A stretch of DNA of 64,000 nt, from contig CANPXP010000002.1 of NCBI GenBank assembly GCA_947586255.1, forward strand, positions 1 to 64,000, read 5' to 3'. The translations under genes and the position numbers were made by a program. The notes under the pieces are model-generated. The model made no database searches. It saw only the letters and a list, made by a program, of their open reading frames with translations, and had not been told where the DNA came from. How positions within the stretch are numbered: position 1 is the first letter of the stretch; every line of letters starts with the position of its first letter. Positions 31,451 through 47,620 of the stretch are shown one piece after another. The stretch comes from an uncultured Lachnospiraceae bacterium (GTDB lineage: Bacteria; Bacillota; Clostridia; Lachnospirales; Lachnospiraceae).

Positions 31451-33223
31451 TCACTCAGGCAGCGCGTCCTGTTCGTCCACCGTCTCCTGCGTGTACGTGT
31501 CAAAAGCGCCGGTATTTTCGTTCCGCGCAATCATCTTAGCGAAAGGATCCGTATAGGAAAGCGCACACACAGCGATTGTGAGCGCCGCACAGACAAGCAT
31601 CTGCCTGCGCATACGCTTAGCCTGTCCACTCTCCGGACCAGCCTGTGCATAAGCCGCCCGCTTCTCCAGAAGAAAACCCCGCCACTCCCCGTAGCCGCAT
31701 ACGGCGAGAGGCAGCAGCAGCGGAAAATAGAGAATCGCATAGAGTCCCTCCGCCTCCCAGAAAATATGGAACAGGAATCCGCCCACAAAAGCGAGCGGCA
31801 GCAGCGTCTCCTCCAGAGAGCTCTTCTTCCGGCGCAGAACGGCATAGAGGAACACACCCGCCAGTATCCAGGTATGTAGCAGGTTCACCCACAGTGTATA
31901 CAGATACCTGCCCCTGCCCTCAAGGAGCCACGCAAGTCCGTCCTTGCCTTTTCTCTCCCCCAGAATCCACAGCGACTGAAACGTCGGATTGTTCCACTGG
32001 GAAGATATCTTCTTGACGAAAAAGCTTATGCTAGTGCGAAGGTCTTTCGGATACCCGGCCACGATTCTCCGAATCTCTGCCATGACGGCCTCCGAGGTTC
32101 TGTCGTAATCGTAATCGTTCTCTATAAAGACGCCGTTGTTATAACCGTTATACCAGCCCGGCGCCGCCTTGCCGTCCTGCAGTCCCATGGCGATCCACGC
32201 CGTCATGGGAATCCCCCGCACGCTGTTCCCCTGATTGACGCTTCTCACATAGGCGTCCACGCCCCACCTGCCGGCGGCAAAAAAGACGAGAAGCGCTGCG
32301 ATGAGCGCGCACCTTGCCAGCGCTTTCCCCAAGCCCTCTTTCCTTCGGAGCCCGTTCCACAACCCAAGCAGCTGACAGATAATCTGGGCGATCATAAAGA
32401 TCATATAGTTGGACTTCACCACCGTGGCGATTCCCATGCTCAGTCCGCACAGCAGCAGCTGCCACCACTTCCCATCCCTGTCATAGCACAACATCATATA
32501 GAATGACAGCAGCGCAAACGCCATGCCGACCACCGTGCCGTACAGAAACGTTGCATACAAAAGCCAGGGTACAAAGAGCAATCCGACAACGGCCGTCGCG
32601 AACTCATATACCTTGCCCTTGTCCGCCCAGAGCATGCCCGCCATCTTTGCAAAAAGATAGTAAGACATCGCGATCCAGAGGCAGTTGACAAGCTGAAAAG
32701 CAACATAATTCCCGTCTCCGAACACATAGGTGAGAAGTCTGAAATAAGTCACCGCCCCGATCTGAAAAGGGAAGACATGCAGATAGTCTCCGGGCTCAAA
32801 ATCGGAATAGACATGATGATTCAGTCTCAAGGCCGCCTCGATGACATGCATCTGATCGTACTTGGGATAATACTGTCCCGCCATCACGAACGCCGCCGCC
32901 AAGATCCCGGCTGCAGCGCACACAATCAGTCCGAAGTACTTCCCGCGGATCTGTCTGCCGGAGTTCTTCCGTTTCACTTTTACCAGCACAAACGAGAAGG
33001 TGGAAAATACAACAATATGTTGTAAAAAGAAATCCCGGATATAGAATGTGTGCTCTGTGTTGATTTCCTCGACTCCCGAAGCCGTGTTGTAACGATATCC
33101 TCCCAGATAGCAGCTGCTGAAGATACTCGCCAACAGCAGATAACCAACAATCACAGCAAACAGAATCCATACGGCTCTGCGCATCAGCTCCGGCAGGGAT
33201 ATCTTTTTATCGACGCTCGACAT
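31451..33223 (-). CDS. Large polytopic GT-C-like membrane protein
   Basis: 590 aa with many TM helices; GQYYPKYDQMHVIEAALRLN first loop. Confidence 0.65.
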   Translation of the reverse strand: MSSVDKKISLPELMRRAVWILFAVIVGYLLLASIFSSCYLGGYRYNTASGVEEINTEHTFYIRDFFLQHIVVFSTFSFVLVKVKRKNSGRQIRGKYFGLIVCAAAGILAAAFVMAGQYYPKYDQMHVIEAALRLNHHVYSDFEPGDYLHVFPFQIGAVTYFRLLTYVFGDGNYVAFQLVNCLWIAMSYYLFAKMAGMLWADKGKVYEFATAVVGLLFVPWLLYATFLYGTVVGMAFALLSFYMMLCYDRDGKWWQLLLCGLSMGIATVVKSNYMIFMIAQIICQLLGLWNGLRRKEGLGKALARCALIAALLVFFAAGRWGVDAYVRSVNQGNSVRGIPMTAWIAMGLQDGKAAPGWYNGYNNGVFIENDYDYDRTSEAVMAEIRRIVAGYPKDLRTSISFFVKKISSQWNNPTFQSLWILGERKGKDGLAWLLEGRGRYLYTLWVNLLHTWILAGVFLYAVLRRKKSSLEETLLPLAFVGGFLFHIFWEAEGLYAILYFPLLLPLAVCGYGEWRGFLLEKRAAYAQAGPESGQAKRMRRQMLVCAALTIAVCALSYTDPFAKMIARNENTGAFDTYTQETVDEQDALPE

Positions 33224-34214
33224 ACTTGTTCTCCTTCAAACTGTATTTGCCGCCCTTCAAAAATTTATGCCGGATGACCCACCAGGCGGGCACCCAGATA
33301 TATTTGTGCATGGCCGGCGATGCGCTTCCGATCATCCAGCAGTTCCTGTCGCAGTGCTTCGTACGCTCACGGACCTTCTGCGCCTGTTCGGAATTCCACA
33401 GCTCGTCCCAGCTCTGCTCTCTCAGATTCCCCATAACGGCTTTCTTCTCCATGCCGTTGCAGGGAATGACATCGCAGAACGGATCGATGAAGAAAGCGTT
33501 CCTGGACATGTCGCAGGGCAGAAGCCGCTTGTTGCCGTAGATATAATTGATCAGCCCGTGATTGAAATAAGCGCGGAACCACTTCTTGGGAGAATTGCTC
33601 CGCAAGAGCTCGTTGATGAGCTTCTCAAAATTCTGCGCCACCTTGTACTTATCGTCGATCTTGTTGTCCGTCTTGCGAAAATAAAAAGAATTGTGCAGCG
33701 TCGCCGTGGCAAATTCCATTCCCATATCGTTGGCGATATTGTAGAGCGGCACCAGATCCTCGCAGTTCATATCCTGCACCGTCATGCCGAAACCCACGTC
33801 CGGATGTCCCATCTCCACCAGCGTCTTTAAAGTGTTGTAACCCCTGTTAAAGCCGTCTGGGATTCCTCTGATCGCATCGTTCGTCTCCTGCAGCCCCTCG
33901 ATGCTGATGCGGATACCGACCCTGGGGAACTCTTTGCACAGCGCGATGATTCTGTCCGTAAAATAACCGTTTGTGGAAATGACGATTCTGTCGGATTTTC
34001 TGTACAGTTCCCGCACAATATCGGGCATGTCCTGCCTGATGAAGGGCTCGCCGCCGGTGATGTTGGTGAAGGCCATCTCAGGCAGCTTCTTAATCTCCTC
34101 CAGCGTGATCTCCTCCTCGGGTCTGGTGGGATCCCTGAAGCAGTCGCACATATTGCAGCGGGCATTGCACCGGTAGGTCACGATGACTGTGCCGTATAGG
34201 GTTCGTCTGGACAT
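33207..34214 (-). CDS. Radical SAM protein with SPASM-like C-terminal cysteines
   Basis: VTYRCNARCNMCDC (CX3CX2C), TGGEPFIRQDMPDIV, C-terminal PFCDVIPCNG...HCDRNCWM. Start at 34214 has GAGAGGAG RBS. Confidence 0.9.
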   Translation of the reverse strand: MSRRTLYGTVIVTYRCNARCNMCDCFRDPTRPEEEITLEEIKKLPEMAFTNITGGEPFIRQDMPDIVRELYRKSDRIVISTNGYFTDRIIALCKEFPRVGIRISIEGLQETNDAIRGIPDGFNRGYNTLKTLVEMGHPDVGFGMTVQDMNCEDLVPLYNIANDMGMEFATATLHNSFYFRKTDNKIDDKYKVAQNFEKLINELLRSNSPKKWFRAYFNHGLINYIYGNKRLLPCDMSRNAFFIDPFCDVIPCNGMEKKAVMGNLREQSWDELWNSEQAQKVRERTKHCDRNCWMIGSASPAMHKYIWVPAWWVIRHKFLKGGKYSLKENKYVERR

Positions 34215-34247
34215 AAGAACTCCTCTCTGTAAGCGCTTCTTGCTCAT

Positions 34248-35456
34248 TTATGTGTATACTTTCCTCACTATTTTATCACAATATTCCTCTACTGTGTCAA
34301 AATTTATATGCCGGCAGTTCTCCTTGTAACGGCGGCAGCGCTCGGGATCGTTCCAGAGGGCGCGGATATGCTCTGTCAGCTCCTGCGCGTCGCCGCCGCG
34401 GAACAGCTCTCCGGTTACGCCCGCCTGCACCAGTTCCGGCGCTCCTCCCAGATCGGAGACAAGCACGGGTGTGCCGTACATCTGGGATTCCATGACGGAG
34501 AAAGGACAGTTCTCGTACCACTCGGAAGGATATACGCTGAAGCGCGCCCTCGCAATCAGGTCGCGCAGCTTTTCCCCGGCCACGAACCCCCTGTTCTCCA
34601 CGTTGGCTGCCCCGTTTACCTCCGCTTCCAAAGGCCCGGTCCCGGCAAAGACAAAGGGGATTTCCGGCAGCGCCCGGCAGGCTTCCAAAAGCGTCCGCGT
34701 GCCTTTTTCCTCCGCGAAGCGCCCAAAATACAGGACATATCCGTCCTCCGCGCCATCCCCATACCGCATCTCATCCTTCTCGATAAAGTTGTGCATCACC
34801 ACCGTCTTATCCGCCAGCAGCGGATCGGTATCCAGCTGTTTTTTCATGAACTCGCTGGGACAGACGATCACGTCCACCATGCCGTAGGTCCGGCGTTTCG
34901 CGTAGAATTTCGCCTCGACCGTGCCGAGCAGACTTTTGATACGGGAATTATGGATACAGCGGTTCCTGCTGCACTGCCTGTAATCCCCGCCGCGACAGGC
35001 GAAGCAAATCCTGCCCGTCGCCGGAACGCGCATCATGTGGTTGGGGCAGACCCACTGATAGTCATGGGCGGTGTAGACGATCCGCACTTTGGCGCCGTGC
35101 TTTTTTTCATAGTCGCGAACAGCGTAGATCACGGAGGGGGTCAACTGGAAATTGATGTTGTTCAGGTGCACCACATCCGGCCGGAAATCTTCCAGCACGA
35201 GCCGCATTTTCCTTCGAGCTTCCGCTGAATAGACGATACGGAACGGATACAGCAACTTCCCAAGTCCGCCGCCGTGAAAATCCATATCCGACGTATAGAC
35301 TTCCGCGTGGTTTCCCACAATCCTGCCCTCGTGCTCCATGCCGAAATACTGCACTTCGTGCCCCATTTTCTGCAGCTGTTGTCCCAGCTTGAAAATATAA
35401 GTTTCTGAACCGCCATTGGGATACAAAAACTTGTTTACCATCAGAATCTTCATCAT
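34248..35456 (-). CDS. Glycosyltransferase family 4
   Basis: MVNKFLYPNGGSETYIFKLGQQL; YFGRFAEEKGTRTLLEAC; VMESQMYGTPVLVSDLGGAPELV. Confidence 0.9.
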   Translation of the reverse strand: MMKILMVNKFLYPNGGSETYIFKLGQQLQKMGHEVQYFGMEHEGRIVGNHAEVYTSDMDFHGGGLGKLLYPFRIVYSAEARRKMRLVLEDFRPDVVHLNNINFQLTPSVIYAVRDYEKKHGAKVRIVYTAHDYQWVCPNHMMRVPATGRICFACRGGDYRQCSRNRCIHNSRIKSLLGTVEAKFYAKRRTYGMVDVIVCPSEFMKKQLDTDPLLADKTVVMHNFIEKDEMRYGDGAEDGYVLYFGRFAEEKGTRTLLEACRALPEIPFVFAGTGPLEAEVNGAANVENRGFVAGEKLRDLIARARFSVYPSEWYENCPFSVMESQMYGTPVLVSDLGGAPELVQAGVTGELFRGGDAQELTEHIRALWNDPERCRRYKENCRHINFDTVEEYCDKIVRKVYT

Positions 35457-35507: not shown

Positions 35508-37382
35508 TTACTTACGTCTCGCACAGCAAAAAACTGTGTCCTCGTAGACAGGCACCTGGCGCCGATAAACCCAACCAGTATACTTGTTGCTCCACTCCGA
35601 ATAGAGCGCGCTGTCATATGCGGGCATGTCCACCAGTTCCGCGCCGTCCTCCACCTCCATTGAGCCGATCTCTTTCCCGTCGACGATAAACGTGACTGTG
35701 TGCGTCTGGCCGTTGTTCGGTATCGGAAATGCCTCGTGCTCCACGCCCCATCTGTCACACAGCCAGTCAAGACGTCTGGCGATAAAATACTTCGTATAGC
35801 TTACGTTTGCGTCATAATCCAGATAACGCCATTCCTGCAGATCAAGCTTCTCCCAGTCGACCCAGCGGCAGTGATCCATGTCGACAGAGGCATGTATCAT
35901 ATCAACATACTCATCAATCTTCCGTCCCAGAAGGCTCTCAAAAAACGGCATGAGTCTTCCATATTTTTCCATCAGCCGCTGCTGCATCTCCGGCGTATCA
36001 TATAATTTCGGATACCAGTCCAGATGATTCTCGATGTCAGTACAATTCTTCAAAACCGTATACTGATAATCATAAGCATTCCACGTATCGCATTCACCAA
36101 AGGCATTGTCATAATCCCAAATCGGTCCCGAGTACAGCTTATCATCATTTCGATCCTTATAGAAATACATACTGGTGATGCCTGTATCCATATCCAGCGA
36201 GATCTCATCCACCAAAAAACGCTTCACAAAGCTGTCTGCATCCAGATAATCCCACACTTCCGGCTGTCCGTTCTGCACCAACCGTTCTATATTTTCCACA
36301 TAGTCCTGAATGTACTGCACCTGCTCTCTCGAGGCGTGCTGGGGTGATTTAATCACAAATTTATTTTTGTTGAATGTCTCAAATCCGCTGCTGTCAAGCT
36401 TATAATAATTCCCAAACTCTTTCTCAATCAGATATCCTCCCGTGATATTATTGCCGTTTTCGATCAGATATCCCTTATTCTTCCCCCCCCCACTTCTATA
36501 TCGGGCCGCCGAGTCTATATCCGCATTATAGCCTCTGTTCTCTTTTTCCATATCCACAATCTCTACTCTACCCTGCCCAACGGAAACGGATTCGGTCAGC
36601 AAATAATTGCCCGCGTACTCTCCATTCAGATACAGATCCACCCATGTGCCCTGCGGACTGTAGGCGAATTCCAGCTCCTCCGCCAGATCCATCGCAATTT
36701 TATTATTCAATTTGCTGCCTTCGTTCCACAGTGAAAGCAGGTTCCACTTATTCCCCTTCTCCAGTCCGCACAACGGATATGGTTCTGTCAGTTTAATCGT
36801 ATACGGCTTCTTTACAAAATTCCAACTGCTGTTACCGCGTCCGGATATCCGCTCCAGCGCCCCCTGATACTCTGTGTTTCCATTCTGATCCACGACGCTG
36901 ATCGCCCCTGTCTCCTCACGCTCCTTATCCGCATCCAGATACTCCATGCTGCCGCTTGCCGTATCGATAAAGATTGCGGGTATATTTTCTGACTCCATAA
37001 AAGCGACCGTGTACGTGTGCGTCTCATGCGCTTCATCCGTAACCTGCAGCTCATAGGCGCGCTCATCCTCCCAGGTGAACACATCGCCCTCTTCCATCGG
37101 CTCTCCGTCGATCCGGAGACTGTTCGCGCCGAGGTCTCCCACCATGAATCTTTGTCCCTGCACAAATGAAGGAAGGAAAAAATAACCGCTTCCATCCGCC
37201 TCATTCTGCCATAACTGCACCGTGTTTGCACTGTGTTCTGTATTTACGACAATACACGGAACCGGCTCTCCCCCCCCCAGAATTTTCAGGACTGTACTGC
37301 GCATCTGCATTTGCCTGTATCCAACGATTCCCAGTGTCATCATCAGAATTGCCAGCAACCCAAGTATGTATTTTTTACGCAT
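35508..37382 (-). CDS. CotH-kinase-family protein, membrane anchored (paralog 1)
   Basis: N-terminal TM MRKKYILGLLAILMMTLGIV; ERISGRGNSSWNFVKKPYTIKL; LYLNGEYAGNYLLTES; GPIWDYDNAFGE; C-terminal InlB-B-repeat-like TVTFIVDGKEIGSMEVEDGAELVDMP...GWVYRRQVPVYEDTVF. Confidence 0.88.
   Translation of the reverse strand: MRKKYILGLLAILMMTLGIVGYRQMQMRSTVLKILGGGEPVPCIVVNTEHSANTVQLWQNEADGSGYFFLPSFVQGQRFMVGDLGANSLRIDGEPMEEGDVFTWEDERAYELQVTDEAHETHTYTVAFMESENIPAIFIDTASGSMEYLDADKEREETGAISVVDQNGNTEYQGALERISGRGNSSWNFVKKPYTIKLTEPYPLCGLEKGNKWNLLSLWNEGSKLNNKIAMDLAEELEFAYSPQGTWVDLYLNGEYAGNYLLTESVSVGQGRVEIVDMEKENRGYNADIDSAARYRSGGGKNKGYLIENGNNITGGYLIEKEFGNYYKLDSSGFETFNKNKFVIKSPQHASREQVQYIQDYVENIERLVQNGQPEVWDYLDADSFVKRFLVDEISLDMDTGITSMYFYKDRNDDKLYSGPIWDYDNAFGECDTWNAYDYQYTVLKNCTDIENHLDWYPKLYDTPEMQQRLMEKYGRLMPFFESLLGRKIDEYVDMIHASVDMDHCRWVDWEKLDLQEWRYLDYDANVSYTKYFIARRLDWLCDRWGVEHEAFPIPNNGQTHTVTFIVDGKEIGSMEVEDGAELVDMPAYDSALYSEWSNKYTGWVYRRQVPVYEDTVFCCARRK
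36483..36491. repeat. C9/G9 homopolymer in CotH paralog 1
   Basis: Nine consecutive C on + strand; encodes part of RSGGGKNKG. Confidence 0.95.
37270..37278. repeat. C9/G9 homopolymer near the 5' end of CotH paralog 1
   Basis: Nine consecutive C on + strand; encodes ILGGGEPVP. Confidence 0.95.
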
Positions 37383-37421
37383 ATCTATTCTCCTGATTTT
37401 TAAAGCGCCCACACAGCCGGT
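37375..37421. repeat. 47-bp direct repeat at start of CotH paralog 1 (copy A)
   Basis: ttacgcatatctattctcctgatttttaaagcgcccacacagccggt identical to 39311-39357. Confidence 0.93.
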
Positions 37422-37443
37422 TCAGCCTCTCGGCCGCACTGGG

Positions 37444-39318
37444 TCATCCCCATCTTGCGTTATAGAAACCCATGTCCTCATAGATTGGAATCTGCCATTG
37501 GTACTTCTCGCCGGTATACTGGTTTTCCCACCCCTGATAAACCGATTCGTCATATGCAAGAGGTTCTTTCAGTTCCGCTCCGTCAAGCACCTGCATCGTG
37601 CCGATCACACCTTCATAATTGGCAAAAGTGACCGTGTGCATCTGCCCGTTCGACGGCACGGCAAACTCCTCATGCGCCACACCCCATCTGTCACACAGCC
37701 AGTTGAGGCGCTTGGCGATAAAAAATTTCATATACTTGACGTTCGCCTCATATGTCGAATATTTTCCCATCGATCGAATCTTCTCATCCCTGCCCTCCCA
37801 CAGGCGGCGGTCCATCGCAACGGAGGCGCTGATCGTTTCCGCATACTCATCGAGCCTCCGTCCAAGCATATCCTCAAAGAACGGCAGCACCTTTTCATAC
37901 TCCCGGTGCAGACATCGCTGCAGTTCGGGAGTATCATACAGCCTCGCGTACCAGTCCAGACGATTAGGCTGATTGTCGCACAGCGCCAGTATCGTATACG
38001 TGTAATCATATCCCGGCTCTCCGTCCGCGTTGCTCTCGCCGAAGGAATTGTCATAATCCCACGCTGGACCGGAATACAGCTGATCATCGTCCCTTTCCTT
38101 GTAGAAATACATACTCGTAAGCCCCGCGTCCGTATTCAGAGAGATCTCATCTACCAGAAAGCGTCTGGCAAAGCTGTCCACATCCAGATAGTCCCACACT
38201 GCAAACTGGTCATTCTGCGCCAGCTGCTCAATATTTTCCACATAATCCCGAATATACTGAGCCTGCTCTCTGGAAACGTGCTGCGGCGCACTGATCGTAA
38301 ACAGATTCCCCCGGGAAGTCGCGAAGCCTCCCGTTTCCGCCTCGTAGTGGTCCGGATGATCCTTCTCGATCAGATATCCGCCACTGACATTGTCGCCCGT
38401 CTCAATCAGATATCCCTTGCTGTCCTGTTCTTCATACCGTCCGGCATGATCGATATCCTTGTTATATCTCTTATTTTCCTGCTCCAGGCTGGCGATATCC
38501 ACCCTGCCTTCCCCGACAGATACCGATTCCGTCAGAAGATAATTGCCCGCATAGTTCCCATTCAGATACAGATCCACCCATGTACCCTGCACACTGTAGG
38601 CAAGCCCAAGCTCCTCTGCCAGATCCATCGCCAGTTTATTGTCCAGCTTGCTGCCTTCCCGACACAGTGCAAGCAGACGCCATTTGTCTCCCTTGTCCAG
38701 CCCACACAGTGGATACTTCTCCGTCAATTTGATGGAATAGGGCTTTTTCTCATACTCCCAGGTCGAATTGCCGCGCCCGGATATCCGCTCCAGCGCTCCC
38801 TGATACTCTGTGTTTCCATTCTGCTCCACAACGCGGATATCCCCTGTCTCCTCGTACTCCTTGTCCGCATTCAGCTTCTCCATGCTGCCGCTCGCCGTAT
38901 CGATAAAGATCGCCGGTATATTTTCTGACTTCATAAAAGCGACCGTGTACGTGTGCGTCTCATACGCTTCATCCGTAATCTGCAGTTCATAAGTGCGCTC
39001 ATCTTCCCAAGTGAACACATCGCCCTTTTCCAGCAGCTCTCCGTCGAGCCGGAGACTGTTCGTGCCAAGGTCTCCCACCATGACCGTGCGGCGGCGCACA
39101 CAGGATGGCAGGAAAAACCATCCCCTGCCATCTGTTTCATCTTGCCACAGGCTGACTTCATTGACACCCTGTTCCGAGTGCACGGCAATACACGGAACCG
39201 GCATTTCTCCTCCCTGAATTTGCAGAACTGTGTTGCGCATCTGCATCTGCCTGTAGCAGAGGATTCCCAGTGTCGTCATCAGAATTGCCAGCACTCCAAG
39301 TATATATTTCTTACGCAT
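37444..39318 (-). CDS. CotH-kinase-family protein, membrane anchored (paralog 2)
   Basis: Same architecture: MRKKYILGVLAILMTTLGI; ERISGRGNSTWEYEKKPYSIKL; GPAWDYDNSFGE; TVTFANYEGVIGTMQVLDGAEL. Track start 39405 is an over-extension. Confidence 0.88.
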   Translation of the reverse strand: MRKKYILGVLAILMTTLGILCYRQMQMRNTVLQIQGGEMPVPCIAVHSEQGVNEVSLWQDETDGRGWFFLPSCVRRRTVMVGDLGTNSLRLDGELLEKGDVFTWEDERTYELQITDEAYETHTYTVAFMKSENIPAIFIDTASGSMEKLNADKEYEETGDIRVVEQNGNTEYQGALERISGRGNSTWEYEKKPYSIKLTEKYPLCGLDKGDKWRLLALCREGSKLDNKLAMDLAEELGLAYSVQGTWVDLYLNGNYAGNYLLTESVSVGEGRVDIASLEQENKRYNKDIDHAGRYEEQDSKGYLIETGDNVSGGYLIEKDHPDHYEAETGGFATSRGNLFTISAPQHVSREQAQYIRDYVENIEQLAQNDQFAVWDYLDVDSFARRFLVDEISLNTDAGLTSMYFYKERDDDQLYSGPAWDYDNSFGESNADGEPGYDYTYTILALCDNQPNRLDWYARLYDTPELQRCLHREYEKVLPFFEDMLGRRLDEYAETISASVAMDRRLWEGRDEKIRSMGKYSTYEANVKYMKFFIAKRLNWLCDRWGVAHEEFAVPSNGQMHTVTFANYEGVIGTMQVLDGAELKEPLAYDESVYQGWENQYTGEKYQWQIPIYEDMGFYNARWG

Positions 39319-39357
39319 ATCTATTCTCCTGATTTTTAAAGCGCCCACACAGCCGGT
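39311..39357. repeat. 47-bp direct repeat at start of CotH paralog 2 (copy B)
   Basis: Identical to 37375-37421. Confidence 0.93.
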
Positions 39358-39400
39358 CCATCGCAGCGGAGGCGCTGATCGACTGCGCATACGCATCAAT
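39355..39400 (-). pseudogene. Fragment of a CotH gene between paralogs 3 and 2
   Basis: Minus strand frame reads AYAQSISASAAMDRL, matching EYVRTISASAAMDRLRW in paralog 3; about 39 of 46 bases match paralog 2 at 37809-37854 by eye. Confidence 0.75.
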
Positions 39401-39437
39401 TCCATGATTCAGGAAAAAATAACCCCGCATAAAACCA

Positions 39438-41318
39438 TTATTCCAATCTCGCATTGTAGTAGACTGCATCCTCGTAAACCGGCATCTGTTGTATATACTC
39501 CTCGCCGCTTTCTTGATTTCTCCAGCCGCAATAGACATCTTCATCATATTCCGGCTTTTCCAGTTCCTCTCCGTCCATCACTTCCTCAACGGCGACCACT
39601 CCCTCATCATTCAAGAAAGTGACCGTATGCATCTGCCCGTTGGATGGCGTCTGAAACAGCTCATGCTCCACGCCCCATCTCTCACACAGCCAGTTGAGCC
39701 GCTTCGCCAGAAAGAATTTCGTATATTTGACATTGTCGTCGAAAAATGAATATCTTCCCGACGACATCACCCACTCTCCCTCCGCCTCTTCAATACCGCT
39801 CAGCCAGCGCAGCCGGTCCATAGCTGCCGACGCGGATATGGTCCGGACATATTCGTCAATTTTATAATTCAGCAAATCCTCACAAAACGGCAGTATCCCG
39901 GCATACTCCTGCCGCAGGCGTTCCTGCACTTCCGGCGTCTCATACAATTTCACATACCAGTTCAGACGATTCTCATCCTGATCACAATCCTTCAGAACAG
40001 TGCGCTCATAGTTGTAATTGTAGTGCAGATAGCTTTCTCCATCGCCAAACGCATTGTCGTAATCCCATGCCGGACCGGAATACAGTTTGTCGTCGCCCCG
40101 CTCCTTATAAAAATACATGCTGGTAATCCCGACATCCATATTTAACGCTATTTCATCTATCATAAAACGTTTTACGAAGCTGTCCGCATCCAGATAATCC
40201 CACACCTCCGCCTGTTCACTTTGCACCATCTGTTCCACGTTCTCCACACAGTCCTGTATATACAGCACCTGTTCTCTGGAAGCGTGCTGCGGAGCTCTGA
40301 CGGTAAATCGATTTCCGACCGAGGTAACAAACCCCGCCTTCTCCTCCTCATAGTACAGCTCAAAATCTCTCTCGATCAGATAGCCGCCGCTGATATCTCT
40401 CCCATTCTCTATCAGGTAGCCCTTGTTGTCTTCCTCCGCATAAGTATCTGCCGTGTCGATATTCTCATTGTACTTCTTATTCTCTTTCTCCAGATCAGAA
40501 ATTTCCACACGCCCCTCTCCGACAGAGACAGACTCTGCCAGAAGATAATTTCCGGCATATTCCCCATTCAGATACAGATCCACCCATGTGCCCTGGGGAC
40601 TGTAGGCGATTCCCAGCTCCTCGGCCAGATCCATTGCAATTTTATTGTCCAGCTTACTGCCCTCACGGCACAGTGAAAGCAGCCTCCACTTATCCCCTTT
40701 TTTCAGTCCGCACAGCGGATACTTCTCGGTCAGTTTGATAGCATATGGCTTTTTGTCATACTTCCATGTAGAATTGCCGCGGCCGGATATCCGCTCCAGC
40801 GCTCCCTGATACTCTGTGTTGCCGTTTTTGTCCACAACCCGGATATCGCCCGTCTCTTCATGCTTTTTGTCCTCGTTCAGGTATGCCATGCTGCCGCTGG
40901 CCGTATCGATAAAGACCGCCGGTATATTCGCCGATTTCATGAAGACGACACTGTATGTATGCGTCTCATACGCTTCATCCGTAATCTGCAGCTCATATGC
41001 CTGCTCTTCCTCCCAGCTGAAGGTATCCCCCTTCTCCAGCAGTTTCCCGTCAATCCTCAGACTGTCCGTGCCGATATTTCCCACCGTGACAGTATGGCGA
41101 GTCACACAGGAAGGAAGAAAGAAAAAATTTCTGCCGCTTGTTTCGTCCTGCCAGATCTCAATTGTATTGTCGCTCTGTTGTGTGCTGACAGTCAGACACG
41201 GCACATAATCCGCTCTCACTGTCAAGACAAGGCTATTGCTCTGCTCATGATGATAGCAGACGGCGCCCAGCAATATCATCAGAATCATCAGTGATCCGAG
41301 CATATATTTTTTACACAT
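39438..41318 (-). CDS. CotH-kinase-family protein, membrane anchored (paralog 3)
   Basis: MCKKYMLGSLMILMILLGAV; ERISGRGNSTWKYDKKPYAIKL; GPAWDYDNAFGD; TVTFLNDEGVVAVEEVMDGEEL. Confidence 0.88.
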   Translation of the reverse strand: MCKKYMLGSLMILMILLGAVCYHHEQSNSLVLTVRADYVPCLTVSTQQSDNTIEIWQDETSGRNFFFLPSCVTRHTVTVGNIGTDSLRIDGKLLEKGDTFSWEEEQAYELQITDEAYETHTYSVVFMKSANIPAVFIDTASGSMAYLNEDKKHEETGDIRVVDKNGNTEYQGALERISGRGNSTWKYDKKPYAIKLTEKYPLCGLKKGDKWRLLSLCREGSKLDNKIAMDLAEELGIAYSPQGTWVDLYLNGEYAGNYLLAESVSVGEGRVEISDLEKENKKYNENIDTADTYAEEDNKGYLIENGRDISGGYLIERDFELYYEEEKAGFVTSVGNRFTVRAPQHASREQVLYIQDCVENVEQMVQSEQAEVWDYLDADSFVKRFMIDEIALNMDVGITSMYFYKERGDDKLYSGPAWDYDNAFGDGESYLHYNYNYERTVLKDCDQDENRLNWYVKLYETPEVQERLRQEYAGILPFCEDLLNYKIDEYVRTISASAAMDRLRWLSGIEEAEGEWVMSSGRYSFFDDNVKYTKFFLAKRLNWLCERWGVEHELFQTPSNGQMHTVTFLNDEGVVAVEEVMDGEELEKPEYDEDVYCGWRNQESGEEYIQQMPVYEDAVYYNARLE

Positions 41319-41335
41319 ATATGTCCACCATCCAA

Positions 41336-43315
41336 TCAGGCATCTGCATCGAGCCGGCTGCGCCCGCAGCATCTTCGATACAGTCTGACAGTCTCATCCA
41401 CGACTTCGTCCCAGTTGTACTTTCCACAGATAAAATCCGCGCTCTGCGCCGCCCGCTCCCGCACAATATCCGGATGCTCCAGCAGATACCGCAGCTTTTC
41501 GCGCAGATCGTCCACATCGCCTCTGCCGAATACAAGCGCTTTGTCCTCCACAACTTCCGTGTTTTCGCAGATATCGCTCACCAGGCAGTAATTGCCGTAG
41601 CTCATCGCTTCCAGCAGACTCAGGGACATGCCCTCCACATCGCTGGGCAGCACAAACGCATAGGCGTTGGAATACAATTCCTCAAGCGTCTGCCCCTGCA
41701 CAAAGTCGGTCATAATAATGCGCGGATCTTTCTGCGCCATGCGGTAAATCCGCTCCATATACTCCACCGCCTGGCTGCTGCCGCCGGCGATTACCAGCTT
41801 CTTGTCCGTATCGATCCCTGAGTACGCCTCAATCAGATAGTGCAGCCCCTTCTCCGGTACGATTCTGCCGAGAAACAGCAGATAACCGTCCTTCGCAAGA
41901 CCGTACTTCTCCGCAATGAGATCAACTTCCCTGCGCTGCGGCCGGCTGATCCCATTGGAAATGTAAGTGACCTCTCTGCCGTAGGTATCCGCAAAATACC
42001 GCTGCACGTTCTCGGACAGCACGATCACCTCATCCGCATACTTCGCCGCCATCTTCTCGCCGAATTTAATGACAAAGGAGGCAAAATTGCCCCACTTGGC
42101 GCGCTGCCAGTCCAGGCCGTGAATCGTAACCACGATTTTTCTGCGAAGCAGCTTCGGGAGCCACAGCATGGCGCAGGGCCCTTCGGCATGATAATGCAGC
42201 ACGTCGTATCTGCCGAACAGGGCTCTGACCGTCGCGAAAAAACTGTAGACAATGGCGTTCAGACTGCTGGTGCGAAAGGTAGGCACGATATATACCCTGA
42301 CGCCCTTATAGTACTTTCTGCCTTTCCAGCCGTACTCCTGATCGTATTTCTTGCCGGACACATGGTGACCGTAACGGTTGTAGACATCCACCCGGTGCCC
42401 GAGCGCGGCCATGCGCACGGCAAGCTCTTCCACAACGATCTCGATACCGCCCTCTCTGGACGGTATCCGTTTGTGACCGATCATCGCTATGCGGAGCCGG
42501 TCTTTCCCGCTGACGCCGCCCGCCTTCGCCTCAATGCCCGCCATACGGCTGCGTTTCTCCCGCAGCGCCTTGTTCTCTCTGTGGACATAGTACAGGAAGG
42601 CAAAATTCGTGCTCAGATAGCGCGGCAGCAGCCTTTTAGGATTCTGCGTGATGCGGAACACCCACTCCAAGCAGAGCTTCTGCATCCACATGGGCGCCCG
42701 CTTCACCGTCCCGGCGATAAAGTCAAACGCCGCGCCCACTCCAAGCATCAGACCGTTTACCCTGCCGCGGTGCTCATACATCCATACTTCCTGCTTGGGC
42801 GCGCCCAGCGCCACCCAGACAAAATCCGCGCCGCTCTCATTGATCCTCCGCACGTCCTCCGCATCCTCCTCGGGCGTCGTCTCGCGAAAAGGAGGCGCGT
42901 ACATACCCGCGATCCTCAGCTTCGGATATCTCGCCAGCAGTTCTCTCCTCAGCCTCTCCAGCGTGTTCTCCGTGCTGCCGTAGAAGTAATGCGTGTATCC
43001 TCTCTCCTGCGACAGATTCAGAATGGCGGGCATCAGATCGGGCCCCGGCACGCGCTCCGCCTGCGCATAGCCTCGCCTGCGGCTCACAATGGACAGCGGC
43101 TGCCCGTCCGGCAGCGCCATCGCGGCGCTGTTCTGTATCCTGCGGTACTGCTTGTCCCGGAACGCCATCACTGTTGTGTGCACATTGGACACGCAGATGT
43201 AATTTCCTTTCAATCGTTCCAGATTGTCTGTGATGTACGTAATCGTCCCGTCCATATCGGTGACATTGATATTCGTTTTTAAGATGGTACAATATTGCAG
43301 GCTCATCTCAGGCAT
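41336..43315 (-). CDS. Fusion: WecG/TagA/CpsF-like GT26 (N-terminal) + GT4 (C-terminal)
   Basis: N-term SNVHTTVMAFRDKQYRRIQNSAAMALPDGQPLSIVSRRRG...WVALGAPKQEVWMYEHRGRVNGLMLGVGAAFDFIAGTVKRAPMWMQKLCLEWVFR; C-term IAMIGHKRIPSREGGIEIVVEELA...LGRIVPEKGLHYLIEAY; single 659-aa frame. Confidence 0.92.
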   Translation of the reverse strand: MPEMSLQYCTILKTNINVTDMDGTITYITDNLERLKGNYICVSNVHTTVMAFRDKQYRRIQNSAAMALPDGQPLSIVSRRRGYAQAERVPGPDLMPAILNLSQERGYTHYFYGSTENTLERLRRELLARYPKLRIAGMYAPPFRETTPEEDAEDVRRINESGADFVWVALGAPKQEVWMYEHRGRVNGLMLGVGAAFDFIAGTVKRAPMWMQKLCLEWVFRITQNPKRLLPRYLSTNFAFLYYVHRENKALREKRSRMAGIEAKAGGVSGKDRLRIAMIGHKRIPSREGGIEIVVEELAVRMAALGHRVDVYNRYGHHVSGKKYDQEYGWKGRKYYKGVRVYIVPTFRTSSLNAIVYSFFATVRALFGRYDVLHYHAEGPCAMLWLPKLLRRKIVVTIHGLDWQRAKWGNFASFVIKFGEKMAAKYADEVIVLSENVQRYFADTYGREVTYISNGISRPQRREVDLIAEKYGLAKDGYLLFLGRIVPEKGLHYLIEAYSGIDTDKKLVIAGGSSQAVEYMERIYRMAQKDPRIIMTDFVQGQTLEELYSNAYAFVLPSDVEGMSLSLLEAMSYGNYCLVSDICENTEVVEDKALVFGRGDVDDLREKLRYLLEHPDIVRERAAQSADFICGKYNWDEVVDETVRLYRRCCGRSRLDADA

Positions 43316-44997: not shown

Positions 44998-46074
44998 TTA
45001 ATACAGCATGAGCGCCGGTCCCAGCGCCCACGGATATGCGCCGTAGCGCTGCGGATATCTGCCAAAGCCTTCACACTCAGCGGAACAGTCATACACCCGT
45101 CCGCCTCTCGTCGACTGTTCCAGGGCGCTCTCGCCCGCCCGCAAAGCCTCCTCATAGTCCGCTCCGCGCAGAATCTGAAGTTCCATGCCTCTCAGGAGAG
45201 CCGCGCAGATCATCGCCGTGGCGGAGGTGTCCGCCGGCCCCTCCGCCGCCTGCAGCTGCCAGGAGAAGTACCCGTCCTGCCGCTGATACGACAGCACCGC
45301 GTCCGCCAGTGCGATATAAGGCTCCCGCAGTCTTTCAAGCCCGTACGCACTCGTCATGCACCCGGCCATGCCGCGCAGCAGCCAGCCCACCGCTCTGCCC
45401 CAGCCCACGATGCCGTACTTGCAGGTTGACCGCAGCTCATAGCCGTGATAGGGAAGTCCCGTCGCCCCGTCCATACCGTAAGCGAGGAAATTGGCGATCT
45501 GCCTGACGGCGAGCTCCATATATTCGTCCCTGCCAAAATACCGTCCGTACTCATACAAGAAAGGACACGCCAGCCCGATACAGTCCACATAGACATGGCC
45601 GTTCTTCTGCCCCGCGCGGTAGGGAAAACTGCCGGCCTCGTCGCGCGGATATGCCGCCGCGTAGGCCGCCATCCTGTCAACCGCTTCGCGGTATTTCTCC
45701 GCGTCCCGCTCTCCCGCGATCCCCGCCGGTCCACTGCCATCACAGCAGGCTTCATAGACAGCCAGGAAAGTCTCTCCCGCCAGCAGATCGTCCAGGCAGA
45801 GAACAGGCATGCGCCTCGCCTCCCACCTCCTGAAGTAATCCGCCAGCGACTGCGCAATCTCCCGGCTTACGGCAGGCTCCGCCGTCTGCAGACAATGCCA
45901 CAGGCCGCAGGCCAGCAGACCCGTCGGCCAGAAAACAAGATCCTCCGTATCGGCCGGCCTTCGCAGTATGTTCTTTTTGACCCATCTTTTGGCTCTCGTC
46001 TTCGCATCCCACAGTCCGTATGTCAGCAGATCATGACATGCCGACAAGGCCAGTTCCCGCCTGTCCGAGATCAT
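44998..46074 (-). CDS. Glycoside hydrolase family 88/105-like
   Basis: HVYVDCIGLACPFLYEYGRYFG; GIVGWGRAVGWLLRGMAG; DTSATAMICAALLRGMEL. No signal peptide seen. Confidence 0.75.
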   Translation of the reverse strand: MISDRRELALSACHDLLTYGLWDAKTRAKRWVKKNILRRPADTEDLVFWPTGLLACGLWHCLQTAEPAVSREIAQSLADYFRRWEARRMPVLCLDDLLAGETFLAVYEACCDGSGPAGIAGERDAEKYREAVDRMAAYAAAYPRDEAGSFPYRAGQKNGHVYVDCIGLACPFLYEYGRYFGRDEYMELAVRQIANFLAYGMDGATGLPYHGYELRSTCKYGIVGWGRAVGWLLRGMAGCMTSAYGLERLREPYIALADAVLSYQRQDGYFSWQLQAAEGPADTSATAMICAALLRGMELQILRGADYEEALRAGESALEQSTRGGRVYDCSAECEGFGRYPQRYGAYPWALGPALMLY

Positions 46075-46084
46075 CTTACACAAC

Positions 46085-47620
46085 CTATCCCTTTCGCAGA
46101 AATTTGAGTCTGCCGGCAGCCAGCCTCCACAGATACGCAAACTCGTCCGTCCTCTTAAAGCATAGATAAAATACCGCGTTGTACGCCACCGTCACAATCA
46201 CCGCCATGGAGGCAAACGTCGCAATCGTCACTCGCGTCATCACCACCGCTTTGACCGGAAGCATCAAGAGCAGAACGCCCGCGATGACGGCGATATATTT
46301 CAGGGAATCTCTGAAATACAGCCACGGGCTGCGGTCAAAGCAATCCCTGTACACAATGACCGGCTGAATCAGATTCGCCAGAACGCCCGATACCACCGTT
46401 CCCACATACACACCCGCCAGGCCGATATACCGGATTCCGGCGATCGACAGAATCAGATTGACCGCTCCCTGGATCAGTGGGAGATATCTGTCCTGCTCAA
46501 ATACGCCGGCCGCTATCTTGAAGTTCACGAGAACAGTTCTGCCGCCCTTCAGATAAAAATCGATCAGGATCAGCGCCAGCACAGTCTGCCCCAGCCGCCA
46601 GCTTTCGTCCAGCCACAGCCCCGCGACAAGCGGCGTAAGAAGCAGCCAGAATCCGACGGCCGCGAACCCGTAAAGCCAGCACGCGAAGAAGCGGTATACC
46701 CGAAACATGGCGTGCTGCTTCTCCCTGGATTCCGTCGCCACCAGATTGCCGAAGCCAGAGATCACGGAATTGAAAATCACGCCGATAAAGTTGGACACAT
46801 AGGTGATCACCAGCGTGTAATTGCCCACGATGCCGACCCAGTCCACATCCATAAAATACGTGATGATAACGCTGTCCGTGGACAGTCTCGCCACATCTCC
46901 GATCTTATGAAGCATCAGCGCCTTCGTCTTGGTGACGACGACTCCCGTCTCCTCCCTGTCCAGCCTGCGCACATTTCTGTCCGTCAGATACGGATACAGC
47001 CTGTTAAAATAGACACTGACAAAAATTTTCTGTATCAGTTCTATAGCCGACTGCGCCAGCAGGAACAGGAGAAAGCTGCGCGTCAGATACAGCGTGACAA
47101 TCTGCGCAAGCGTGACGACAATCCTGGTGACCGTCGCAATGTTCGTCTGGATATAGTTGCGCTGCTGCGCGTTGACCAGACTGTACTTGTACGCGACAAA
47201 ATAAGTGCTCACCGTGTTGAACAGAAAAATCAAGTAATACAGCACAAGCTCTCTGTCCGAAATTCCCTTGCCGTCCCTGATCAGCGCCGGCAGAAACGGT
47301 ATGAGCGCCACGCCAATCACGGCGATCACCCCGGCAATCGCCAGATAAGCCCGCTTATAAAGGCGCATATAGGACTTGATCTTCTCCAGATCGTTGTCGG
47401 CCACCGGCTTGTACAGGCTGTAATTGAGCGCGCTGCCGATCCCCAGCTCCGCCAGTGAAAGCATACTCAGAATATCCGTGTACAGCGAGTTGACGCCGAG
47501 CAGCGTCTTGCCTAACAGCGCAATGAAAACCGTCCTCTGCAGCAATCCCATTACGATGATAACGATATTGCCCGCATAGCCAAAGAAAATATTCTTCTCG
47601 GCCTGTCTGACTCTGCCCAT
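46085..47620 (-). CDS. Wzx-like polysaccharide flippase
   Basis: AEKNIFFGYAGNIVIIVMGLLQRTVFIALLGKTLLGVNSLYTDILSMLSLAELGIGSALNYSLYKP; about 12-14 TM segments. Confidence 0.85.
   Translation of the reverse strand: MGRVRQAEKNIFFGYAGNIVIIVMGLLQRTVFIALLGKTLLGVNSLYTDILSMLSLAELGIGSALNYSLYKPVADNDLEKIKSYMRLYKRAYLAIAGVIAVIGVALIPFLPALIRDGKGISDRELVLYYLIFLFNTVSTYFVAYKYSLVNAQQRNYIQTNIATVTRIVVTLAQIVTLYLTRSFLLFLLAQSAIELIQKIFVSVYFNRLYPYLTDRNVRRLDREETGVVVTKTKALMLHKIGDVARLSTDSVIITYFMDVDWVGIVGNYTLVITYVSNFIGVIFNSVISGFGNLVATESREKQHAMFRVYRFFACWLYGFAAVGFWLLLTPLVAGLWLDESWRLGQTVLALILIDFYLKGGRTVLVNFKIAAGVFEQDRYLPLIQGAVNLILSIAGIRYIGLAGVYVGTVVSGVLANLIQPVIVYRDCFDRSPWLYFRDSLKYIAVIAGVLLLMLPVKAVVMTRVTIATFASMAVIVTVAYNAVFYLCFKRTDEFAYLWRLAAGRLKFLRKG

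Follow-up and report, generated by a model that had tools for sequence, protein, structure and literature searches.

The window analyzed here is a 64,000-nucleotide stretch from an uncultured Lachnospiraceae bacterium (GenBank assembly GCA_947586255.1, contig CANPXP010000002.1, positions 1 to 64,000). On its minus strand, between positions 35508 and 41318, reading of the open reading frames (ORFs) revealed three intact CotH-family genes arranged head to tail within a polysaccharide locus, which we call CotH3, CotH2, and CotH1 in the order of their transcription. Position 41318 is likely the true start codon of CotH3, the longer ORFs listed being upstream extensions. An earlier note on this DNA, made without database searches, had described three paralogs of about 625 residues in a row, and that is what we found: the proteins are 62-67% identical to each other (66-67% for CotH2 and its two neighbors), contain each of the CotH core motifs quoted in that note exactly once, and match the CotH family profile PF08757 with scores of 122.6-136 bits, against a curated cut-off of 23.8. 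No NCBIfam model covers them. The genes are closely packed, with gaps of 17, 119, 61, and 51 bp in the series WecG-GT4/CotH3/CotH2/CotH1/GT4. The ratio of nonsynonymous to synonymous substitution rates (dN/dS) among the three copies is 0.15-0.21, with dS values of 1.2-1.8 that are near saturation. Since the E-values are this low (Table 1), dN/dS is low, and the genes are conserved in 25 other genomes, chance similarity can be excluded.

We modeled CotH3 using AlphaFold2, with an input alignment consisting of the window copies and relatives from named genomes. The model, which has a mean predicted local distance difference test (pLDDT) of 90.7 and a predicted template modeling score (pTM) of 0.89, shows an N-terminal helix (residues 2-27), a beta domain (residues 30-139) for which no Pfam family was matched, a mixed CotH core (residues ~145-548), and a small C-terminal beta domain (residues 563-624). 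When the model was compared to the PDB with Foldseek, the best match was Bacillus cereus CotH in complex with Mg and adenosine monophosphate (AMP) (5jda, E 3.9e-15, template modeling score of 0.74 on the target), followed by the same protein without Mg/AMP (5jd9, E 2.1e-14), while the weaker matches after CotH were PI3K-type kinases. Identity to Bacillus CotH across the fold is ~14%. Searches of PDB sequences with a single protein or a three-sequence alignment gave no match, and a broader alignment was required; the broad family profile then gave significant scores for 5jda and 5jd9 only (E 1.7e-28).

Next, we looked at the catalytic residues. In B. subtilis, the substitutions D228Q and D251A abolish the activity of CotH (PMC7821199), and we infer from the motifs and an equal spacing of 23 that these residues correspond to positions 224 and 247 in 5jd9. 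Profile alignment to 5jd9 places their equivalents at D395/D419 in CotH3, D397/D421 in CotH2, and D399/D423 in CotH1, with one extra residue between the two Asp relative to the Bacillus spacing. Both essential Asp are invariant in the three copies and in every homolog that we read at the same genomic position (slot 1, see below). Since the CotH3 model has the CotH fold and both Asp are retained in all copies, we found neither of the outcomes that the earlier note had named as fatal to its proposal, i.e., a different fold or absence of the catalytic residues from all three proteins. These computational findings show a predicted CotH atypical-kinase fold with its two essential Asp kept. By every feature testable here, CotH1/2/3 belong to the CotH family, and adenosine triphosphate (ATP)/metal-dependent phosphotransfer is predicted.

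The three proteins have one hydrophobic segment each at the N terminus, which corresponds to the first helix in the model. In nearly all CotH homologs, the positive charge N-terminal of this helix equals or exceeds the charge that follows it, and the catalytic part is therefore predicted to be outside. CotH1/2/3 are thus predicted to be single-pass membrane proteins with their catalytic part on the outer side of the cytoplasmic membrane, in agreement with the membrane segment and extracytoplasmic placement proposed previously. The C-terminal tail, which had been likened to an InlB B-repeat, may resemble it in fold, and its sequence supports this weakly. Foldseek aligned the CotH3 model to Listeria InlB (7nms) over 70 columns with a root-mean-square deviation of 2.9 and a probability of 1.00 but an E-value of 0.03, whereas the match to PF09479 (Listeria-Bacteroides repeat) is below the cut-off of 27 bits (E 0.13, 12.8 bits; E 0.048 in a relative), and a profile of the domain had no significant match among PDB sequences. 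Since the sequence match falls below the Pfam threshold, the likeness to InlB would be one of fold.

The array lies in a large Wzx/Wzy-type heteropolysaccharide cluster, which confirms the setting reported in the earlier note. The surrounding genes, nearly all on one strand, encode a sugar-phosphate transferase, glycosyltransferases, a pyruvyltransferase, a GH88-family protein, and ABC transporters, plus a Wzx (flippase-like) and Wzy (polymerase-like) pair that was assigned by size, membrane segments, and position, with no Pfam match. We surveyed 77 gut Lachnospiraceae genomes of one genus, in which a slot-1 CotH was called at 52% identity or more. Such genes are present in 26 of the 77 genomes, with one to four genes each. 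In all the slot-1 loci that were read gene by gene (25/25), the order is WecG-GT4, CotH, GT4_f, radical SAM, and the number of CotH copies is one in 19 loci, two in 3, three in 2 (the window and G235), and four in 1 (G005). Of the 41 loci that lack CotH, all but one have the border genes at a distance of -113 to +111 bp from each other. Because CotH occupies the same slot in 25 loci, and the border genes abut in 40 of the 41 loci without it, a link between CotH and the polysaccharide can be drawn, which is in line with the surface role that had been thought likely. One CotH-less locus (L179, 11445-12645) displays a 1.1-1.2-kb gap at the slot, with no similarity to CotH.

How were these genes gained? 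In other genera of the family that have the same gene set, the slot contains no CotH, and only one of 397 family genomes searched beyond the genus gave a match at E < 1e-90, which argues that CotH was acquired within the genus. Mapped onto the WecG-GT4 protein tree, the presence of CotH at the slot changes at least nine times, six of these changes being forced by well-supported branches, with no direction assigned. The CotH tree displays an old duplication common to the window genome, G005, and G235, and a separate duplication in G192, G195, and G219. Both duplications were retained through speciation as distinct lineages. Across loci, the median identity is 0.60 for CotH versus 0.80 for the flanking WecG-GT4. 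Within the window, the short CotH coding relic between CotH3 and CotH2 (LNHGIDAYAQSISASAAMDR) is the trace of a further copy that was lost, and the nearly identical leaders of CotH1 and CotH2 are the footprint of a recent duplication or conversion. Since the two leaders are 97% identical over 62 bp and a relic is recognizable, turnover of the array is ongoing. Taken together, these findings suggest that the CotH genes are an optional decoration cassette, characterized by 1) acquisition at the level of the genus, 2) a fixed slot, 3) repeated gain or loss, and 4) up to four diverged copies.

We searched for partners and for a source of the cassette as well. CotH divergence correlates best with that of GH88 (partial rho 0.70) and GT2_d (0.62), which is suggestive only. 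None of the core locus genes is associated with CotH presence, and the top associations, which involved glycosyltransferases at the edge of the retrieved DNA, were discarded as an artefact of its unequal extents. A mobile-element origin was considered, and plasmid and phage searches gave no close relative. CotH-domain matches were seen in 22 mycobacteriophage records, including an unannotated 886-residue CotH-domain protein in Mycobacterium phage Dove (gene 40; L239, 4314-6974), which is 28% identical to window CotH and whose gene has those of minor tail proteins on one side and that of lysin A on the other.

Table 1. Features of the CotH array, the borders of its slot, and CotH genes of other loci (positions in the window unless a locus is named)
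Feature	Position	Strand	Remarks
CotH3	39438-41318	-	626 residues; first in transcription order; PF08757 E 3.2e-35
CotH2	37444-39318	-	624 residues; second copy, architecture as CotH3; PF08757 E 2.8e-39
CotH1	35508-37382	-	624 residues; third copy, architecture as CotH3; PF08757 E 1.9e-38
CotH3 N-terminal transmembrane helix	41238-41315	-	hydropathy, flanking charge, model helix
CotH2 N-terminal transmembrane helix	39238-39315	-	hydropathy, flanking charge
CotH1 N-terminal transmembrane helix	37302-37379	-	hydropathy, flanking charge
CotH3 catalytic segment D395-D419	40062-40136	-	codons 40134-40136 (D395) and 40062-40064 (D419)
CotH2 catalytic segment D397-D421	38056-38130	-	
CotH1 catalytic segment D399-D423	36114-36188	-	
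CotH3 C-terminal InlB B-repeat-like beta domain	39438-39674	-	Foldseek match to InlB 7nms
CotH2 C-terminal beta domain	37444-37674	-	
CotH1 C-terminal beta domain	35508-35738	-	
CotH coding relic LNHGIDAYAQSISASAAMDR	39353-39412	-	20 codons; between CotH3 and CotH2; tblastn 71-75% over 20 residues
CotH2 leader and start	39296-39357	-	62 bp; 97% identical to CotH1 leader (37360-37421); blastn within array
WecG/TagA-family + GT4 glycosyltransferase fusion	41336-43315	-	upstream border of slot; Pfam; in 65/65 loci compared
GT4 glycosyltransferase (GT4_f)	34248-35456	-	downstream border of slot; Pfam; abuts WecG-GT4 where CotH is absent
Radical SAM/SPASM protein	33207-34247	-	beside slot; Pfam; locus marker of the survey
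Second-subfamily CotH genes	L018 4397-6295 and 2478-4064; L019 2166-4073; L020 1955-3874; L021 14374-16284; L220-L232		
Degenerate CotH lacking both catalytic Asp	L024 6107-7492; L025 7103-8623; L026 5928-7463; L033 9619-11037		beside intact CotH and DUF4956 gene

Two other genes of the locus were noted. The radical SAM/SPASM protein (33207-34247, minus strand) is unusually constrained for an enzyme in a polysaccharide locus: its gene is found in 69 of the 77 genomes, mostly at 90-95% identity, and is ~70% or more identical in other genera, while the genes that adjoin it are ~50-85% identical. It matched no curated equivalog. The GH88-family protein (44998-46140, minus strand) is encoded inside a biosynthetic locus, has no hydrophobic N-terminal segment that we could find, and is kept in most loci of the genus.

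The window genome has four other CotH genes, on contigs C40, C9, C4, and C58. Those on C9, C4, and C58 (L029, L030, and L031) adjoin DUF4956 and VTC genes, defining three CotH-DUF4956-VTC modules, and this link recurs across the genus. No VTC or DUF4956 gene is adjacent to the window array; in this genome they are on contigs C58, C9, C4, and C1, the last of which carries a fourth VTC-DUF4956 pair with no CotH detected. Since VTC is near universal in the genus (75/77 genomes), its co-occurrence with CotH is uninformative. In several relatives, a second CotH subfamily, absent from the window, is found at another position of the same polysaccharide locus, beside GT4_d. In this subfamily, all 23 proteins have Gly in place of the catalytic Asp (KNNGGGATSSFFYKP-type motif) and the second Asp is kept, which predicts a pseudo-enzyme. 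Slot-1 CotH is also present in 15 of the 19 genomes with the second subfamily, a raw count not adjusted for kinship.

What might the proteins of the array do? We tentatively propose, giving it a little less than an even chance, that they are outward-facing phosphotransferases marking the polysaccharide of this locus or a surface acceptor. The CotH enzymes would phosphorylate the polysaccharide during its export, or a surface acceptor bound to the polymer, with Mg-ATP as the default donor by homology to CotH. Each copy might leave its own mark, while the small beta domains would keep the enzyme near the wall or the polymer. Within this reading, we somewhat favor a glycan over a protein as the acceptor. 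The earlier note found a classic ATP-dependent kinase puzzling outside the cell and suggested that the proteins may modify or bind surface glycans or proteins; this puzzlement, and mere binding as a way around it, now appear less well founded since the two Asp are invariant in the slot-1 copies that we read and kinases of the secretory pathway work outside the cytosol. On the whole, its observation was right and its interpretation right in direction, and we regard it as partly supported.

Several points weigh against this proposal. ATP is scarce outside cells, and the locus holds no recognized exporter of ATP or of a phosphate donor. Loci with and without CotH have the same core genes for glycosyltransferases, Wzx, and Wzy, and therefore no gene points to a step specific for phosphate. 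Most other CotH genes of the genus have DUF4956 and VTC partners, which are missing beside the window copies. The long ORFs contain 8-13 cysteines per protein, 1.2-1.4% beyond the membrane segment, a share above that expected for secreted Gram-positive proteins, the median for cytosolic proteins of the locus (2.1%) being higher still.

The strongest competitor, which we nevertheless consider unlikely, is that these proteins are strict protein kinases, acting on Ser-rich surface or secreted proteins or on the assembly machinery and thereby setting the amount or attachment of the polysaccharide rather than modifying the glycan. The characterized CotH substrates are indeed proteins only, CotB and CotG (PMC7821199), regulation of the Pel polysaccharide by a CotH-like kinase has been proposed (PMC7112168), and deletion of a CotH gene in Streptococcus intermedius reduced the amount of Pel (PMC12345266). 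However, unlike in cotH-cotB-cotG, there is no cotB/cotG-type or other Ser-rich repeat gene beside the array, which neighbors glycosyltransferases and the radical SAM protein. Moreover, its patchy presence and fast divergence relative to WecG-GT4 are more like those of glycan-specific genes than what a gene regulating conserved machinery would show.

Both essential Asp are kept without exception in the window copies and in the slot-1 homologs that we read, which pure binding would not need. This makes it improbable that the proteins are non-catalytic or otherwise catalytic, i.e., that the CotH fold and the beta domains bind or organize the polysaccharide or that the fold serves another transfer. 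The outer beta domains and the InlB-like tail would suit such a role, as would the loss of catalytic residues in related subfamilies (the second subfamily and the degenerate CotH in L024, L025, L026, and L033) and the non-phosphate transfer catalyzed by some kinase-fold proteins (PMC7948968). Last, we find it very improbable that the separate CotH-DUF4956-VTC modules make polyphosphate, or some other donor that is exported, and that the CotH proteins of this genus use it instead of ATP as their source of phosphate. In favor of this, DUF4956 and VTC adjoin the other CotH genes of the window genome in three of four cases, the link is genus-wide, VTC occurs in 75 of the 77 genomes, and the same gene set flanks Pel operons (PMC7112168). 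However, the window locus contains neither gene, a nearly ubiquitous VTC tells nothing by its co-occurrence, and the B. cereus CotH structure was solved with AMP and Mg.

Returning to outward-facing phosphotransferases, we can picture a complete surface glycan-kinase system, by analogy with the Fam20C/Fam20A pair, in which slot-1 CotH would phosphorylate particular sugars of a Wzy-type polysaccharide, tandem copies would differ in acceptor specificity, and the Asp-to-Gly CotH would play a regulatory role in relatives. As a whole, we view this scheme as doubtful, with a slightly smaller chance than the binding alternative. CotH-domain proteins are common across bacteria, and to our knowledge the Bacillus spore enzyme is the only one with a demonstrated activity. 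The natural series of zero to four copies in an otherwise matching locus means that the target of surface CotH is testable by comparing the polysaccharides of close strains. If glycan phosphorylation proves true, gut commensals would carry a class of bacterial glycan kinases that likely affects surface charge, phage adsorption, and immune recognition.

Comparison with known systems puts these proteins in perspective. They are in the same family as Bacillus CotH (5jd9, 5jda; PF08757) by profile and fold and share both essential Asp, but are extended by a membrane anchor at the N terminus, a beta domain, and an InlB-like domain at the C terminus, and their genes are in tandem in a polysaccharide locus rather than beside the spore-coat genes cotB/cotG. 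Cellulosomes of anaerobic Firmicutes contain CotH-domain proteins with dockerins, which similarly combine a CotH module with extracellular accessory domains, but the window proteins have no dockerin and no cellulosome genes were seen in the window. In Gram-positive Pel operons, CotH is part of an accessory set with a polyphosphate polymerase, DUF4956, and DUF4832, and when the gene for the secreted CotH-domain protein at the S. intermedius Pel locus was deleted, both Pel and aggregation decreased (PMC12345266). The S. intermedius protein (SIR_1594) resembles ours in being a CotH-domain protein, predicted to be secreted and encoded in a polysaccharide operon. However, Pel is synthase-dependent whereas the window locus is of the Wzx/Wzy type, and the window copies are without polymerase and DUF4956 partners, have an InlB-like tail instead of FN3, and form tandem arrays at an often-empty slot. 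The secretory-pathway kinases Fam20B, Fam20C, and POMK work outside the cytosol, where their targets are glycans or proteins (PMC7948968, PMC5142810), and two of this group are glycan kinases (PMC5142810). Their likeness, and that of Fam20A, is by analogy only, i.e., a kinase fold outside the cytosol; no significant match to Fam20/POMK was found for the window proteins, and we claim no membership. The pairing of active Fam20C with the pseudo-enzyme Fam20A resembles that of active slot-1 CotH with the Asp-to-Gly CotH, although the putative pseudo-enzyme partner is absent from the window. In the open-access literature, to which our search was largely confined as most subscription journals were outside its scope, we found no paper on CotH in such Lachnospiraceae loci. 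The membrane-anchored, multi-copy, slot-bound CotH of this Wzy-type locus represents a new form of a known family.

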